From: Sulfurospirillum diekertiae
GTDB taxonomy: Bacteria; Campylobacterota; Campylobacteria; Campylobacterales; Sulfurospirillaceae
NCBI RefSeq assembly: GCF_002162315.1
Contig: NZ_CP021416.1
Location: forward strand, 558,001-622,000
Direction of reading: 5' to 3'
DNA: 64,000 nt
Part shown: positions 1,857 through 50,398 of the stretch, one piece after another
Numbering within the stretch: position 1 is the first letter of the stretch
Layout: each line of letters begins with the position of its first letter
Translations under genes and position numbers: made by a program
The notes under the pieces: generated by a model
What the model saw: only the letters and a program-made list of their open reading frames with translations
Told to the model about the DNA's origin: nothing
Database searches by the model: none

Positions 1857-2538
1857 AAATTTACATGTCTATTATGGACTCATTGAAGCTGTTAAGGGAA
1901 TTGATTTTGAAGTCAAAGAGGGACAAATTGTCTCTTTGATTGGCTCAAATGGTGCAGGAAAAAGTTCAACACTCAAAGCACTTCTTAACAGTGTTAAAAA
2001 AACGGGGGATATCAATTTCTTAGGTTACGATACCCATAACCATAAAACACACACGCTGGTACAACATGGTTTATCTCTCGTTCCAGAGGGAAGAAAGATT
2101 TTTATTAATTTGACAGTAGAAGAGAACCTTCGTATGGGGGCATTTAATAACGATGAAAATTTTGATCATCTTAGAGATGCTATGTATGAGCTTTTCCCGC
2201 GTATCAAAGATAAACGCTATCAACTAGCAGGGACAATGAGCGGGGGTGAGCAACAAATGTTAGCGATTTCACGTGCCTTAATGGGTGAACCGAAGCTCTT
2301 AATGCTTGATGAACCAAGCCTTGGACTTGCGCCTAAAATTGTTGGTGAAGTTTTTGAGATCATTACACGATTACGTAATGAGGGAATCACCATTCTTTTA
2401 GTTGAGCAAAATGCTTTTGCTGCTCTCAAAATTTCAGATTATGCCTATGTTTTAGAGAATGGTAAAATTGTTATGAATGGCGTTGCATCTGCAATGATTG
2501 GTGATGATACTATTCGTAAAAAATATCTCGGTGGATAA
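1843..2538 (+). CDS. livF: Branched-chain amino acid ABC transporter ATP-binding protein LivF
   Basis: Second ATPase of the Liv importer. Walker A GSNGAGKSS, signature MSGGEQQMLAISRAL, Walker B LLMLDEPSLGLAPK and H-loop LLVEQNA are all present. The SLGLAP sequence is typical of LivF. Length is 231 residues. A run of 7 A in the gene (about 1986-1992) is in frame here, so homopolymers are not uniformly affected in this window. It is the last gene of the operon and is followed by a hairpin. Confidence 0.95.
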   Translation: MISVKNLHVYYGLIEAVKGIDFEVKEGQIVSLIGSNGAGKSSTLKALLNSVKKTGDINFLGYDTHNHKTHTLVQHGLSLVPEGRKIFINLTVEENLRMGAFNNDENFDHLRDAMYELFPRIKDKRYQLAGTMSGGEQQMLAISRALMGEPKLLMLDEPSLGLAPKIVGEVFEIITRLRNEGITILLVEQNAFAALKISDYAYVLENGKIVMNGVASAMIGDDTIRKKYLGG

Positions 2539-2555
2539 AAAATTCACATCTTCTG

Positions 2556-2595
2556 TTTACATGTAAATCTCTCTTAGCGGAGGTTTACATTTCTA
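2556..2595 (+). terminator. Hairpin terminator after livF, overlapping a TTTACATGTAAA palindrome
   Basis: Bases 2561-2571 (ATGTAAATCTC) pair with 2580-2590 (GAGGTTTACAT) with one G-T pair, followed by TTCTATT. The left arm is also the right half of the palindrome TTTACATGTAAA at 2556-2567. It lies 18 bases after the livF stop and probably ends the liv transcript. The rest of the gap to 2809 is AT-rich, with no recognisable gene. Confidence 0.6.
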
Positions 2596-2809
2596 TTAAA
2601 CTCTTCTATAAAAACTCACCCCGTTAGAGCAAACAAGTACAAATGATTTTAGTGCGATATTTTACTTATAGAATGAAAAAAAGGGTATCAAAGTGTATTT
2701 TTTTTGTTTTTTCTAAATTAAATAACGCTGTGCAAGGGACATGTATGATTTATAAATTATTTACTCTAAAAAGGTAACATAACTTAATTTTTCCAGATAA
2801 GGGAGTTTT

Positions 2810-5800
2810 ATGGATTTTGTATTGAAGCAGATTTTTTCGATGAAATCGGCTATCATCCTGATGGTGCTTTTTGGACTTTTTTTGTGGTGTAGCAACGTTT
2901 ATTGAAAATGATTTTGGTGTCGAGACGAGTTGGGCACTGATCTATACTGCATGGTGGTTTGAACTGATTCAAGTTGCTTTAGCACTTATTTTAATCTCTA
3001 ATATTATTCGATATAAACTCTACAAACTCGATAAATTACCTGCATTTTTATTTCATATTAGTTTTATTTTTATTCTTATTGGTTCTGGGATCACGCGCTA
3101 TTATGGCTTTGAGGGAACTTTACATGTAAGAAATGGTATGCAAGAGGATAAAGTTTTATCAAGTAGTACTTTTATTCAAGTTAGTGCTTTAAAAGACACT
3201 AAAACTTATAGCTATAGTCATCCACAGCTTATTTCTCGTGCAGGTGGTAATGGCTTTTCATTCTCATTTGATGTAGGTGGCGACAAAGCAGAAGTAAAAT
3301 TTAAACAATATCTACCCAATGCTACTGCAAAAGTTGTTGATGATCCACAAGGTGTTCCAATGATTTCAATGATGCTCAGTGGGTATGGCGAAAGTCTCAA
3401 TGTTGTTTTAAAAGAGGGCGATACTTACGAGTCAAGTGAATATATTTTTAGTTTTAATGCCCAAGTTCCTCAAACCAAGAAGACTATTATCCAATTTACA
3501 TTGGAAGATGGGAAATTTTATTTTTACTCCAAAGAAAAAATTGCATGGTTTAAAATGGCTGAAAACAAGCGTGGGGAATACGCAGCCGATAATAAGCAAG
3601 ATTTTGTAACAGGGCAGCTTTATACCATTGGAAATGTGAATTTTGCACCACGTTATATTGGTCTTAAAGGGCAAGAAAAAGTTGTTGAAGATAAAAATCC
3701 TATGATAAAAGCAAGTGGCGTATCTGCAATTATCGTCGATGCAAAATATAAAGGCGAAACAAAAGAAATTGCTATGTTTGGACAAGGGAAAGGGAGTGAA
3801 GGTGAGCCAACTAAGATCATGATCTCAGGTGTTCCTTTCATCTTTGAGTGGGGTGCACAAATTTTTACACTGCCTTTTGCTATCCAACTTAATGAATTTC
3901 AATTGGATCGTTATGCTGGATCAATGTCTCCAATGTCTTATGCAAGTGAGGTTGAAGTGGTTGACAGTGAAAAAGGGGTTCATGTACCCTTTCGTATCTA
4001 TATGAATCATGTATTGGATTATCGAGGCTTCCGTTTTTTCCAAAGTTCGTACGATAAAGATGAAAAAGGAACAATTTTGTCCGTAAATAATGATCCTGGA
4101 AAGTTACCAACTTATTTTGGATACCTTCTTTTAGGGATTGGACTTTTCTTTAACTTGCTCAATCCAAAAAGTCGTTTCCGTAAACTTGCAGGCATGGTAC
4201 AAAAAGATATGACTAAGATAAAATCTATCTTGGTGGCACTTGTCTCCATCATTGCTTTGAGCCAAGGATCTGCACTACACGCCTATACTACGGAAGAGTA
4301 TATAGGATTTTTAAAACAGTACGATGTAAAACATGCTGATAAGTTTGGACGCGTCTTAGTCCAAAGTGTCGATGGAAGAATTAAGCCGATAGATACAATT
4401 TCGACGGAACTGCTCAATAAAATTTATGGTGGCTCCTCCTATGAAAGGCTAAGTGCAAATCAAGTTGCCCTGAGCATGATGAGTTCTCCGAGTGAATGGC
4501 AAGGTCTACCTATTATCAAAGTATTTCATCCTGAACTAAAAAAAATTATTGGTATTCCTGAAAATCAAAAATATGCCTCTTTCAATGATTTTTTTGAAAA
4601 AGAGGGTGATCATGCTTATAAGTTAACCAAATATTCTGAAGAAGCTAATCGTAAAAAACCAGCGCTTCGTAACCAATTTGATAAAGATATACTCAAAGTA
4701 GATGAGCGTGTTAACATTTGTTATATGGTTTATACTGGCGAAGTCTTTAAAATGATTCCTAAACAAAACGACATCAACAAAAAATGGTTTGCACCTCAAG
4801 AAGCGGTTATGAACTTTTCCAAACAAGAAGGTGATGAAGTGAGAGCACTTCTTGGTGGATATTTTGATTCTATTAGCGAAGGGTTGGAAAAAGGAAATTG
4901 GGAAAATGCCAACAAAGCTATTGATAAACTTCAATCGTATCAAGAGCAGTATGGTTCTGAAATTATCCCAAGTGATAGTCGTATTAAAGCAGAAATTTTC
5001 TTTAACCATGCGAAAATATTTGCACGATTGACCCCTGTGTATCTTCTCAGTGGCTTAGTCTTACTCTGTTTTATTTTTGCAAAAATGGTCAAATCATCTT
5101 TAAATATCAAATTGGCAACAAAAATTGTTTTGACCATTAATTTTGTTGCTTTTTTAGCTCATACGGGTGGACTTGGGCTCAGATGGTATATCTCAACGCA
5201 TGCCCCTTGGAGTGATGGTTATGAATCAATGATCTACATTGCCTGGGCAATAGCACTTGCGGGTATCTTCTTTTCTCGCCAGTCTGTGGTTTCTCTTGCA
5301 TTGACATCCATTCTTGCTGGAGTAACGCTTTTTGTGGCACACCTTAGTTGGATGGATCCACAAATTACCAATCTAGTACCTGTTCTAAAATCTTACTGGC
5401 TTAATATCCATGTTTCGGTGATTACAGCAAGTTATGGATTCTTAGGACTATGTGCGCTTCTAGGCTTTTTTACATTGATCTTATTTATTATAAGAAGCAC
5501 AAAGCAAACCAAACGTAATGTCGAAATTGAACGCAATATTATTGAAGCAACACGTATTAATGAAATGGCAATGATTCTAGGACTGAGCCTTTTAACCATT
5601 GGTAACTTCTTAGGAGGGGTTTGGGCCAATGAATCGTGGGGTAGATATTGGGGATGGGATCCAAAAGAGACGTGGGCTTTAGTTTCAATTCTCTTTTATG
5701 CAGCTGTGGTGCATTTAAGATTTATTCCCAAATTTAATACACCTTTTGCGTTTGCAGTTGCTTCAACGATTACTTTTTCTTCCATTATTATGACTTATTT

Positions 5801-48033: not shown

Positions 48034-48666
48034 ATGAGTATTAGTGATAATCAAGTAGTTTCAATCCATTATGAGCTTAGAAATGTTGATAATGGTGAAA
48101 TTTTAGATAGTAATCTTAATGCAGCGCCACTTTCTTTTATTGTTGGAAAAGGTCAAATTATTCCAGGATTAGAAGAAAAAATTAAAGAGCTTAAAGCTGG
48201 TGATAACGCTGACATTAAAGTAGTTGCAGCTGATGCCTATGGCATTTATGACGAAAATGCTGTTCAAACATTACCAAAAGAGCAATTTGCTGGACTTGAG
48301 CTTCAAGCAGGCATGACACTTTATGGTCAAGGTGAACATGGTGAGACGGTTCAAGTTATTGTCAAAAACTTTAATGATGAAACTGTTGAAATCGATTTCA
48401 ATCATCCTTTAGCCGGTCAAGATCTATTATTCGCAATTAGTATTCTAGAGGTGCGTGATGCTACAGCAGACGAGCTTCTGAATGGCTATGTTGGTGGTGG
48501 ACACAGTTGTGGTTGTGGTGCAGGTGGATGCGGTTCACATGACCATGATGACGAAGGAGAGTGTTGTGGTGGACATGATCATGGACATGACCACGAACAC
48601 GGAGAAGGTGGATGCTGCGGCGGCGAAAGTCACTCACATGGTGGCGGATGTTGTGGATCACACTAA
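48034..48666 (+). CDS. slyD: FKBP-type peptidyl-prolyl isomerase SlyD with Cys/His/Gly metal-binding tail
   Basis: 210 residues. The N-terminal FKBP domain with the IF insertion reads VSIHYELRNVDNGEILDSN, PLSFIVGKGQIIPGLEEKI and FNHPLAGQDLLFAISILEV. It is followed from about residue 152 by a tail extremely rich in Gly, His and Cys (GGGHSCGCGAGGCGSHDHDD, then repeated CCGG, HDHGHDHEHG and CCGSH). Such tails bind Ni, Zn and Cu and supply nickel to hydrogenase or urease maturation. This one also has about 14 Cys. ATG behind AAGGGAG. The 3' end overlaps the next gene. Confidence 0.95.
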   Translation: MSISDNQVVSIHYELRNVDNGEILDSNLNAAPLSFIVGKGQIIPGLEEKIKELKAGDNADIKVVAADAYGIYDENAVQTLPKEQFAGLELQAGMTLYGQGEHGETVQVIVKNFNDETVEIDFNHPLAGQDLLFAISILEVRDATADELLNGYVGGGHSCGCGAGGCGSHDHDDEGECCGGHDHGHDHEHGEGGCCGGESHSHGGGCCGSH

Positions 48667-49417
48667 TTATATAGCAAAGTCTAGAGCCTCTATGGAGGCT
48701 CTTAAGTCTGCGAATCTTCTTAAAAGCGTTACAATCAATGCGCTTATTTTGGGCGAAAGTGGTGTAGGGAAGCAAAGTCTTGCAAGTCACATTGTTTCAG
48801 CACCCATTGTTGATGCAAGTGCCTTTAATGAGCTATTAGCGCTCATCGAAACCAACAGTAGTCTTATTGTTAAAAACTTTCATAAAATTACTAATTATAA
48901 AAAACTTAAAATTGCTTTAGATGTTCATAAAACAAGAATTATTGCGACATCAAATTTGCCTATAGGCGAAGCACTCATGGATGAATTTTTTAGTCTGAAA
49001 GTTGTTATTCCACCTTTACGTGAACGTATGGAGGATGTGATCCCTTTGATGGAAAAATTTGCTCAAGAAGCATGCATGATGTTTGATGGAGAGTTTGGTG
49101 AAGCGCCTTCATTAGAAGAAATTGTGCCAGATTTGAGTAAAAACTGTTATTCTCTACGACGCTCAGTGTATAATGCTTATTTGATGAACTCCTTTGGGGA
49201 AGAAGAGATTTTGGCGATGATGGAGCGTTTTTTGTCCCAACGCATAGGTGGGAGAAATGATTATCGTGAGCTATTATATCTTTTTGATGTCCCAATGATT
49301 AAAAGCGGTTATGCCAAGTTTGGTTCACAACTTGCTATCAGTGAAAAATTTGGACTTAATCGAAACACCCTACGTAAAAAAATCAACGATTACAAAGATA
49401 GATTAAAAATAGACTAG
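48653..49417 (+). CDS. Degenerate NtrC-like AAA+ protein with Fis-type HTH, lacking the GAFTGA loop
   Basis: About 254 residues from GTG 48653 (VDHTNYIAKSRASMEALKSA); ATG 48638 is an alternative start, both within slyD. Walker A is GESGVGKQS (34-42) and the NtrC-family PPLRERMEDVIPLMEKFA motif follows. The C-terminus ends in a Fis-like HTH (AISEKFGLNRNTLRKKINDY). The span between Walker A and the Walker B-like region (SSLIVKNFHKI) is too short to hold the sigma54-contacting GAFTGA loop, and none is seen. It is therefore unlikely to be a classical sigma54 activator. The frame upstream of 48638 is only the slyD tail read out of frame. Confidence 0.8.
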   Translation: MDHTNYIAKSRASMEALKSANLLKSVTINALILGESGVGKQSLASHIVSAPIVDASAFNELLALIETNSSLIVKNFHKITNYKKLKIALDVHKTRIIATSNLPIGEALMDEFFSLKVVIPPLRERMEDVIPLMEKFAQEACMMFDGEFGEAPSLEEIVPDLSKNCYSLRRSVYNAYLMNSFGEEEILAMMERFLSQRIGGRNDYRELLYLFDVPMIKSGYAKFGSQLAISEKFGLNRNTLRKKINDYKDRLKID

Positions 49418-49474: not shown

Positions 49475-50398
49475 ATGAATAATAGTATCTTTATATTCCC
49501 TGGCCAAGGTAGCCAAAAAATTGGTATGGGGAAAGATTTTTATGATCATTCACCGATTGCGAAAGAGATGATCGAAAAAGCAAGCCAAAGAGTTGAGATT
49601 GATTTTACAACACTTCTGTTTGAAGAGAATGATAGGTTAGATCAAACAGAGTTTGCACAACCTGCTATTTTATTAGTCAGCCTTATTGCACACCGTCTTT
49701 TTGTGGAACAGTGCAAAGTGATACCTAAAGTAGTTTTAGGACACTCCTTAGGTGAATTTTCTGCTTTGAGTGCAGCTAGCGCTATGGATTATTTAGATGC
49801 CGTAGAATTGGTACACCAACGCGGTCTTTTGATGAAAAAAGCGTGTGAAGGCATTAATGCTGGCATGATGGCGCTTCTTGGCTTAGATGATGCAACTGTT
49901 GAAAATCTTACATGTAAAGAGCGTGAACTGGGTAAAAAAGTTTGGGCAGCGAACTACAATGGTGATGGACAGATTGTGATTGCGGGAAATCGTGATGATT
50001 TAGTATCTTTAGAGTCACTTTTTAAAGAGGCAGGTGCAAAAAAATCGGTGCTACTTCCTATGTCTGTAGCAAGTCATTGTCCGCTTTTAAGCTCTGCTCA
50101 ACCAAAACTTGAAGCTTATTTAGATCAATGGCTGAAAGAGAGTTTTGCAATGCCTATCATCTCCAATGTAACCGCATCTGAGTACCAAAGCAAAGTTGAG
50201 GCTAAAATGCTTCTATCGCAGCAGCTTATTTCACCTGTAAAATATAAACAATCCATTTTATATGTAGAATCTTCAACGGACTCATTTATTGAATTCGGTG
50301 GCTCAGTGCTTAAGGGTCTTAATAAACGGATCACACAAAAGCCAACGTATAGTATTACCGATATGAAAAGTTTAGAAGAAGTGCTTGCACTTTTGTAA
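49475..50398 (+). CDS. fabD: Malonyl-CoA:ACP transacylase
   Basis: Loads malonyl onto ACP for fatty acid synthesis. 307 residues: FIFPGQGSQKIGMGKDFYD, the nucleophile elbow LGHSLGEFSALSAA with catalytic Ser, QRGLLMKKACEG (Arg for the carboxylate) and the late His in SVASHCPLL. ATG after AAAAGGTTAATCA. A TTTACATGTAAA copy at 49446-49457 lies in the leader and another, TTACATGTAA at 49908, is in the gene. Confidence 0.96.
   Translation: MNNSIFIFPGQGSQKIGMGKDFYDHSPIAKEMIEKASQRVEIDFTTLLFEENDRLDQTEFAQPAILLVSLIAHRLFVEQCKVIPKVVLGHSLGEFSALSAASAMDYLDAVELVHQRGLLMKKACEGINAGMMALLGLDDATVENLTCKERELGKKVWAANYNGDGQIVIAGNRDDLVSLESLFKEAGAKKSVLLPMSVASHCPLLSSAQPKLEAYLDQWLKESFAMPIISNVTASEYQSKVEAKMLLSQQLISPVKYKQSILYVESSTDSFIEFGGSVLKGLNKRITQKPTYSITDMKSLEEVLALL

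Follow-up and report, generated by a model that had tools for sequence, protein, structure and literature searches.

The NtrC proteins of the Rhodobacterales and of Caulobacter, which are among the closest known parallels to the system discussed here, are described in excerpts of one published account (PMC10274813) as being without the GAFTGA motif and as acting at σ70 promoters. The same excerpts state that the NtrC of Rhodobacter capsulatus needs the binding of ATP and not its hydrolysis, and they mention σ70 action by a further activator, VpsR, there spelled "VspR". The present work concerns a 64,000-nucleotide stretch of the Sulfurospirillum diekertiae genome (contig NZ_CP021416.1, positions 558,001 to 622,000; hereafter the window) and, within it, a 254-codon gene that we call X. 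The small NtrC-derived X protein appears to be a switch for ammonium-uptake and other nitrogen genes in many Campylobacterota (the phylum of X being taken from its nearest named relative), acting via ordinary promoters. Our overall proposal, to which we give a probability of roughly 0.82, is that X is a nitrogen-control factor that binds a palindromic box at σ70-type promoters, with probable input from a partner protein, Y, and from PII. The computed evidence comprises the ancestry of X and its losses, the co-occurrence of X with Y and PII, its linkage to amt and PII genes, the box itself and the identity of many of the boxed genes, the spacing from box to -10, and the covariation of recognition helix and half-site. 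Searches of one open-access library, within the terms used, listed no publication on this regulator.

Profile searches place X in the NtrC line. All 43 members of a diverse X set match the NCBIfam family TIGR01818 (ntrC), more than match any other NCBIfam family, with a best E of 2e-13. The X of the window matches pieces of NtrC among the NCBIfam families (best E 2.5e-9) and scores 36.5 bits against TIGR01818, whose curated cut-off is 558.6; its residues 181–246 correspond to positions 394–462 of 463, the C-terminal helix-turn-helix (HTH). Pfam recognizes in X only the start of the σ54 activator domain (residues 7–53, E 2e-4), plus matches below cut-off. When the 43-member profile is compared with the PDB, it finds NtrC1 (5e-13), FleQ and Fis (1etq, 2e-7; 1ety, 3e-6), and two Fis models of NCBIfam are matched by 31 and 24 of the 43 members. 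Against E. coli NtrC, the profile aligns over 244 columns, from the P-loop region through the end of the HTH (hhalign 97.5%, E 6e-12). The AlphaFold model of X has a mean pLDDT (predicted local distance difference test) of 73, with blocks in residues 41–100 at 87–95 and residues 181–240, including the HTH, at 51–61. In this model the AAA+ core is predicted to have short links at the places of the L1 and L2 loops, with no loop insertions. Its best structural matches are PspF and the AAA+ domains of the NtrC family, and Foldseek agrees; the match to 4qnr has a Z of 16.9 and a root-mean-square deviation of 3.6 Å over 187 residues, and that to VpsR a Z of 14.6.

For the anatomy of X, 120 proteins were extracted, two of them without a regular start codon, and 112 were aligned after identical ones had been dropped. 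The Walker A pattern G....GK is found in 107 of the 112, with G39 in all and K40 in 108. F113, N164 and Y204 are invariant (112/112), and the PPL-ER-ED stretch is also kept. The HTH is the most conserved part of the protein, with N236, R237 and T239 in every homologue. The Walker A, the PPLRER motif and the NtrC-type, Fis-like HTH that the initial annotation had read in X are thus present. That annotation had also held the GAFTGA region to be missing; we looked for an intact L1 loop in the predicted structure and for a GAFTGA-like sequence in the aligned homologues, and neither was found (0/112 for the latter). The Walker B had been called weak. It is indeed defective, and judging by the alignment it is lost rather than weak: the DE pair occurs in none of the 112 homologues, a Glu alone at the second position in three, and the X of the window has KN.

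The losses are also apparent from the distances between motifs when X is set beside four intact σ54-type activators of the same genome (loci L175:2230-3642, L176, L177 and L178). From the Walker A Lys to the DE position there are 35 residues in X versus 66 in all four, and from the DE position to sensor I there are 22 versus 38. The interval that bears L1 is therefore 31 residues shorter and that of the pre-sensor-I loop 16 shorter, and the shortening of the latter indicates that X lacks not only L1 but also the pre-sensor-I loop. No Arg lies between sensor I and PPL in the X of the window, the segment in which the arginine fingers of such activators lie; 23 of the 112 homologues have some Arg there, scattered, with at most five at one position. 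No match to a receiver domain was found in X, whose 254 residues already reach the Walker A at residue 34. On this pattern of conservation X is a reduced offshoot of the NtrC lineage and not a broken gene, because P-loop and HTH alike have been retained from family to family within the class. The earlier suggestion of a DNA-binding AAA+ protein unable to act as a normal σ54 activator is accordingly supported by the sequences, now with a predicted NtrC origin.

The four intact activators themselves deserve a few words. Two match NifA best, one FlgR, and the fourth ntrC at 360 of 559 bits; none of the four reaches the curated cut-off of its best family. Three have GAFTDA and one GSFTSA in place of GAFTGA. 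By eye, no Fis-type HTH can be made out at the end of either the NifA-like open reading frame (ORF) behind nifT or the FlgR one.

Homologues of X are found at E ≤ 4.2e-15 in 101 of 298 genomes of the class; these and the remaining genomes are called X+ and X-, respectively. In a further 39 genomes the only matches, at E 8e-7 or weaker, are segments of open frames of 318–517 codons. A larger draw gave X in 166 of 397 genomes, with a single match in each at E ≤ 1e-30, and X is single-copy in the complete 2.88-Mb genome of the window. Among the matches listed from the genome sets, all belong to the order of the window. A scan of genome contigs gave 19 loci of Sulfurospirillum and similar metagenome-assembled genomes and two partial Bacteroidetes matches. 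Labels such as Arcobacter-, Nautilia-, Campylobacter- or Helicobacter-like for surveyed genomes are presumptions on our part. The X proteins of four families (L117 in G044, L120 in G096, L121 in G249 and L134 in G254) form one group in the X tree (Shimodaira–Hasegawa-like approximate likelihood ratio 92, unstarred); Y adjoins X in all four, and in G044 and G254 there is also amt or PII at a distance of less than 2 kb. This suggests that an X–Y island may have been passed by horizontal transfer.

Two proteins accompany X without exception. PII is present in 101 of the 101 X+ genomes, and a search of the 298 genomes for Y, a protein of about 230 residues, gave exactly the 101 that carry X (hypergeometric 3e-82, uncorrected for phylogeny). 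The gene next to X is Y in 35 of the 48 loci where X is not beside slyD, usually with an overlap and in five cases convergently. Of 32 loci examined in which Y is unlinked to X, 30 have it behind rpoD; the Y of the window's genome, 228 residues long, lies 22 nt behind rpoD (L174:8300-8986; G000:C1:1957299-1957979). In some genomes flgF and flgG are found near the rpoD–Y pair with rpoD between, a setting that is that of Y and not of X.

The relation of Y to known families is weak, as follows. The NCBIfam family commonest among its matches is NtrB: at E ≤ 1e-3 it is hit by 4 of 30 members, the best of them at 2e-4, with a score of about 15 bits where the cut-off is 240. In the members shown, the match is collinear: Y 7–65 lies on NtrB 10–67 and Y 108–160 on 202–256 of 349. 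A weak Pfam match to PAS is seen in 11 of the 30 (best 5.5e-6). The Y of the window's genome gives no NtrB-family match at E ≤ 0.1. In profile comparison Y reaches 7.6% against E. coli NtrB (hhalign, E 0.005) and 9% against 13 kinases of the window's genome, both non-significant. A kinase role for Y was considered and set aside: no Pfam match to HisKA or HATPase was found in the 30 members at E ≤ 0.1, the best PDB kinase is ZraS at E 0.29, and the hhalign values are those just given. From its sequence, Y may be to NtrB what X is to NtrC, a relic.

The box was discovered by counting every gapped palindrome upstream of amt/glnK operons. Sixty-one upstream regions were collected; 14 from X- genomes were kept apart, three with wrong operon heads were dropped, and the 44 from X+ genomes gave 33 after de-duplication, among which a few further operon heads may also be off. 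TGATTA-N5-TAATCA occurs in 7 of the 33 and about zero times in 30 Markov shuffles, in which the maximum for any 6-mer dyad was three; it occurs in none of the 14 amt/glnK upstream regions of X- genomes. Over whole genomes there are 188 exact boxes in the 101 X+ genomes, where a reversed-pattern control gives 18, and 39 in the 197 X- genomes, where the control gives 22. The enrichment is thus about tenfold in the former and less than twofold in the latter. In the genome of the window there are four exact boxes (reversed control 0), as follows: one is 65 bp before amt2, two are 68 bp and about 395 bp before amt1, the more distant of these inside a divergent ORF call, and one is before a chemoreceptor gene. 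With one mismatch allowed, a box is also found 49 bp before the nifA-like gene behind nifT, with a TATAAT 32 nt further on.

The genes that follow the box are in large part of the nitrogen type. Of 36 listed X+ boxes, 27 were placed (10 by coordinates, 16 in 15 fetched loci, and L211) and eight were left out (six in family f7, and those of G199 and G125), the one remaining being the L137 box described below; 18 of the 27 are at nitrogen-type genes. The 10 placed by coordinates are just upstream of amt or PII, and eight of the 17 others precede nitrogen-type genes. Among the 16 fetched boxes, three of these genes look like glutamine synthetase, of which one is confirmed by Pfam and two are assigned by resemblance; the others are an amt and genes for a major facilitator superfamily transporter similar to nitrate porters and for two binding proteins, one periplasmic and of the urea type, the other NMT1-like. 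The other fetched boxes precede an unnamed membrane protein or four unclear neighbours, or are four sites in genes or without a target. The L211 box precedes a NifB-like gene. In the linked loci L212, L213, L219 and L220, the box is before amt or glnK. It could be argued that X, given its Fis matches in the PDB and NCBIfam, is a Fis-like and mostly architectural protein whose nitrogen links are incidental. This is very improbable, since the palindrome is specific and its exact copies are few in any one genome, most of those examined being at nitrogen genes. Two sites may be singled out. At L137:1327-1343 (G086:C15) an exact box stands before the apparent start of a broken PII gene, and at L292 an exact box (2284-2300) lies upstream of a methyl-accepting chemotaxis gene (2350-4008), hinting at a possible nitrogen control of chemotaxis.

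The recognition helix of X and the half-site of the box vary together. The comparison covers the 57 of the 101 genomes that have boxes in the loci examined, where a relaxed box is found 94 times versus three for the reversed pattern. For X proteins with Asn238 (NRNTLRKK), 34 genomes have TGATTA-like half-sites, none the other kind, and one is a tie; for those with Ile, Val, Met or Ala238, 16 genomes have TGTATA-like half-sites and none the other kind. The TGTATA-type helix is that of family f7 and of one f9 genus, and it also turns up in one genome each of f4 and f8. Fisher's test gives 2e-13, uncorrected for phylogeny and with classes set after the data had been seen. On a tree of 69 of the 112 proteins, hand-chosen and with the helix columns removed, helix and half-site change together in two independent pairs on well-supported branches, or three on all branches, and all are concordant. 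G249 has an Asn-type X among Ile/Met-type X proteins together with TGATTA boxes, on a poorly supported branch. The covariation was considered as an independent proof of binding and set aside as such: the agreement extends to 50 of 50 genomes in the Asn and the Ile/Val/Met/Ala classes, bar the one tie, but the two or three changes on the tree make it support only.

These results bear on the possibility that another regulator binds the palindrome and that X, with some other function, has simply been inherited alongside. The linkage of X and box is all correlative, and the covariation hangs on those few changes. Against this stand the restriction of strong box enrichment to X+ genomes, the tracking of helix by half-site in two contrasting classes, the presence in two linked loci, L212 and (with one mismatch) L216, of a box that precedes the X gene by 21 bp, and the form of the box, an odd-length 6-N5-6 palindrome with TG..CA ends that fits an NtrC/Fis-type dimer. 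We therefore consider a foreign regulator improbable, and very probably it is X that binds the box.

The promoters behind the boxes look, from their sequences, σ70-dependent. Fifty-one boxed promoters gave 36 after de-duplication; among the 36 are some with one-mismatch boxes, some whose box was taken on either strand, and L347, which is an X- site. A -10-like hexamer lies 30–33 nt after the box in 26 of the 36, with a peak at 31–32; a rotation null gives a mean of 9.4 and a maximum of 21 in 2000. From this spacing the box centre falls near -52. A strict σ54 consensus was found in none of 28 boxed upstream regions scanned, and a loose GG-N10-GC downstream of the box in one; the 28 are not de-duplicated, and many are near-identical Sulfurospirillum amt promoters. 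Promoters of the σ70 type fit a regulator unable to contact σ54, and X is most likely a nitrogen regulator acting at such promoters.

The initial annotation had considered X an anti-activator or an ancillary partner of FlgR. In its general form, X would be an accessory subunit of FlgR or of another σ54 activator, working through mixed AAA+ rings; it does keep the AAA+ core and the Walker A, and four intact σ54-type activators are at hand in the genome. This is also very improbable, however. The boxed genes are mainly those of nitrogen assimilation, 34 of the 48 non-slyD loci have amt, PII or both no further than about 2 kb from X, and an anti-activator role finds no support in them. As to FlgR, no flagellar gene was recognized beside X among the neighbours looked at, whose annotation is incomplete. 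The absence of a strict σ54 consensus from the boxed regions speaks against a σ54 partner, as does the HTH, which is at once the most conserved part of X and the leading candidate for recognizing the box.

A more serious alternative is that X binds the box mainly as a repressor of amt and glnK under nitrogen excess, with Y or PII lifting the repression. The location of the box around -52 leaves the sign of regulation unfixed, and Caulobacter NtrC, in the excerpts of PMC10274813, both represses some σ70-type promoters and activates glnBA. A box upstream of the -35 place, with a favoured distance of 31–32 nt to the -10, would be more usual for an activator. We regard repression as unlikely and suggest that X is probably an activator in the main.

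The mechanism that we propose for X as a nitrogen regulator at σ70 promoters is as follows. X would descend from NtrC by loss of the receiver, the σ54-contact loop, the pre-sensor-I loop and the ATP-hydrolysis residues. A dimer or higher oligomer, probably held together through the HTH domain as in Fis and NtrC, would bind the 17-bp palindrome TGATTAA-N3-TTAATCA, or TGTATA half-sites where the helix is of the other type. Placed at about -52, X would under nitrogen shortage assist σ70 RNA polymerase at promoters like those of amt, glnK and glnA. Since the Walker A is kept and the Walker B lost, a nucleotide would be bound but hardly hydrolysed, and might serve as a structural or sensory ligand. 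Without a receiver X has no phosphorelay input, so that Y and PII, the one perfectly paired with X and the other universal in X+ genomes, are likely inputs and would probably bring the nitrogen signal to X; that Y, PII or both form the sensor side is a reasonable expectation. X genes that bear a box in some X–Y–amt loci would be self-regulated. We infer binding of the box, the sign of regulation, nucleotide binding without hydrolysis and signalling by Y and PII from the evidence above.

It is tempting to go further and to regard X and Y as a stripped NtrC/NtrB pair turned into a nitrogen switch of a new kind, free of any phosphorelay and of ATP-driven σ54 remodelling. In it X, a hydrolysis-dead AAA+ scaffold loaded with nucleotide, would recruit σ70 polymerase and be gated directly by PII and by Y, an NtrB without its kinase core. 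This nitrogen regulator would be ancestral in the phylum and later lost in nearly all genomes of families f2 and f3, which we take to be Campylobacter- and Helicobacter-like. This extended version is tentative, with somewhat less than an even chance, the weak NtrB matches of 4 of the 30 Y members having raised our estimate by a small step.

Several observations weigh against the proposal that X controls nitrogen genes through the box, and these are gathered here. An exact box is missing from 28 of the 101 X+ genomes and present in 36 of the 197 X- genomes. In the window's genome, allowing one mismatch gives 12 boxes versus 7 control matches, and so single boxes of this kind, the nifA-like one included, could be due to chance. 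Nine of the 27 placed boxes are inside genes or beside genes without a clear nitrogen role. The two or three independent changes of helix and half-site are too few for significance. Moreover, the X of family f5 (presumably Nautilia-like), with the helix NRVTLTKK, keeps TGATTA in six of six genomes, which indicates that Val238 alone does not set the half-site. The Y of the window's genome has no Pfam or NCBIfam match. No box with up to one mismatch was found within 1100 bp upstream of X in any of the 53 slyD-type loci; in the window there are nine box matches with two mismatches, where 6.7 are expected, and none is at slyD–X. Finally, X is not required for the possession of PII and amt genes. 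Seven f7 genomes of genus g11 (G008, G030, G106, G127, G187, G237 and G276) keep PII without X and without Y, and five of the seven also have amt. The PII loci of five X-/Y- g11 genomes (L347–L351) have no exact box, and one of them, L347, has a box with one mismatch. In the same genus, G291 and G297 have both X and Y.

We turn to the gene itself and its surroundings (Table 1). The frame of X has 254 codons, from a GTG at 48653 to a stop ending at 49417. That this GTG is the start is inferred from conservation, the frame being open upstream to 48482. The slyD-type setting is that of 53 of the 101 X+ genomes; the other 48 are represented by loci L094–L142 minus L103. The start of X overlaps slyD in 53 of 53 slyD-type loci of the class survey, and in 71 of 72 once named loci are added, the exception being L040. 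The initial annotation had placed the start inside slyD, which stands, and the overlap would allow the translational coupling that it proposed. In slyD-type genomes X seems to be expressed by read-through and by translational coupling from slyD. A metal link through slyD was set aside as a general explanation of X, the gene lying elsewhere in 48 of 101 genomes. Several loci of families f7 and f5 (L094, L101, L141) have a membrane-type protein of about 285 residues directly 5′ of X; a relative of it has a box of its own at L340 (from about 1248) and gives no Pfam match at E ≤ 1e-5.

Table 1. Positions of X, its motifs and its neighbours in the window.
Feature	Position	Strand	Basis or remark
X, predicted 254-residue receiver-less NtrC-derived AAA+/Fis-type HTH protein	48653..49417	+	ORF, homologues, NtrC-family relation
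Walker A GESGVGK, X residues 34–40	48752..48772	+	G....GK in 107/112 homologues
Former Walker B LIVKNF, X residues 71–76	48863..48880	+	KN in place of catalytic DE
Putative Fis/NtrC-type HTH recognition helix NRNTLRKK, X residues 236–243	49358..49381	+	homologue alignment
slyD	48034..48666	+	final 14 nt overlap X start
fabD, 3′ neighbour in most slyD-type loci; outside the regulatory system	49475..50398	+	

What the proposal would mean can be stated briefly. At issue is the control of ammonium uptake, of glutamine synthetase and of nitrogen-fixation genes. All four intact activators of the window's genome fall below the NtrC cut-off; X and its box make a candidate master regulator with a testable regulon. 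If true, X would be an extreme conversion of NtrC to σ70, showing what an AAA+ activator can do without after abandoning σ54. A second little-characterized family, Y, accompanies it in all 101 genomes.

It remains to compare X with the known systems. With NtrC (TIGR01818) it shares the family match of 43 of 43 members, an alignment to the E. coli protein through the HTH, and a predicted amt/glnK/glnA regulon; its box resembles the NtrC site in being a 17-bp palindrome with TG..CA ends. Unlike NtrC, X has no receiver, no GAFTGA, no pre-sensor-I loop and no Walker B DE, it reaches only 36.5 of 558.6 bits, and its predicted targets are promoters of the σ70 type where those of NtrC are of the σ54 type. 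With bacterial enhancer-binding proteins of the VpsR/TyrR type X shares the AAA+ fold and a regulation away from σ54; these proteins have different targets and are longer than X. Fis has the C-terminal HTH in common with X but, in chains of 98 residues, no AAA+ domain. Between NtrB and Y there is a weak collinear similarity, without a HisKA or HATPase match in Y. A published precedent is the NtrC of R. capsulatus and Caulobacter, which, in the excerpts cited (PMC10274813), resembles X in its L1 deletion, its nitrogen genes and its σ70 promoters. Those proteins keep the phospho-aspartate of the receiver, which is important for activation, and have the kinase NtrB as partner; X, in contrast, is without the receiver, the acidic pair of Walker B and the pre-sensor-I loop, and its partner Y is without recognizable kinase domains. 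The Walker A kept and the Walker B lost in X are compatible with the binding without hydrolysis reported for R. capsulatus NtrC.

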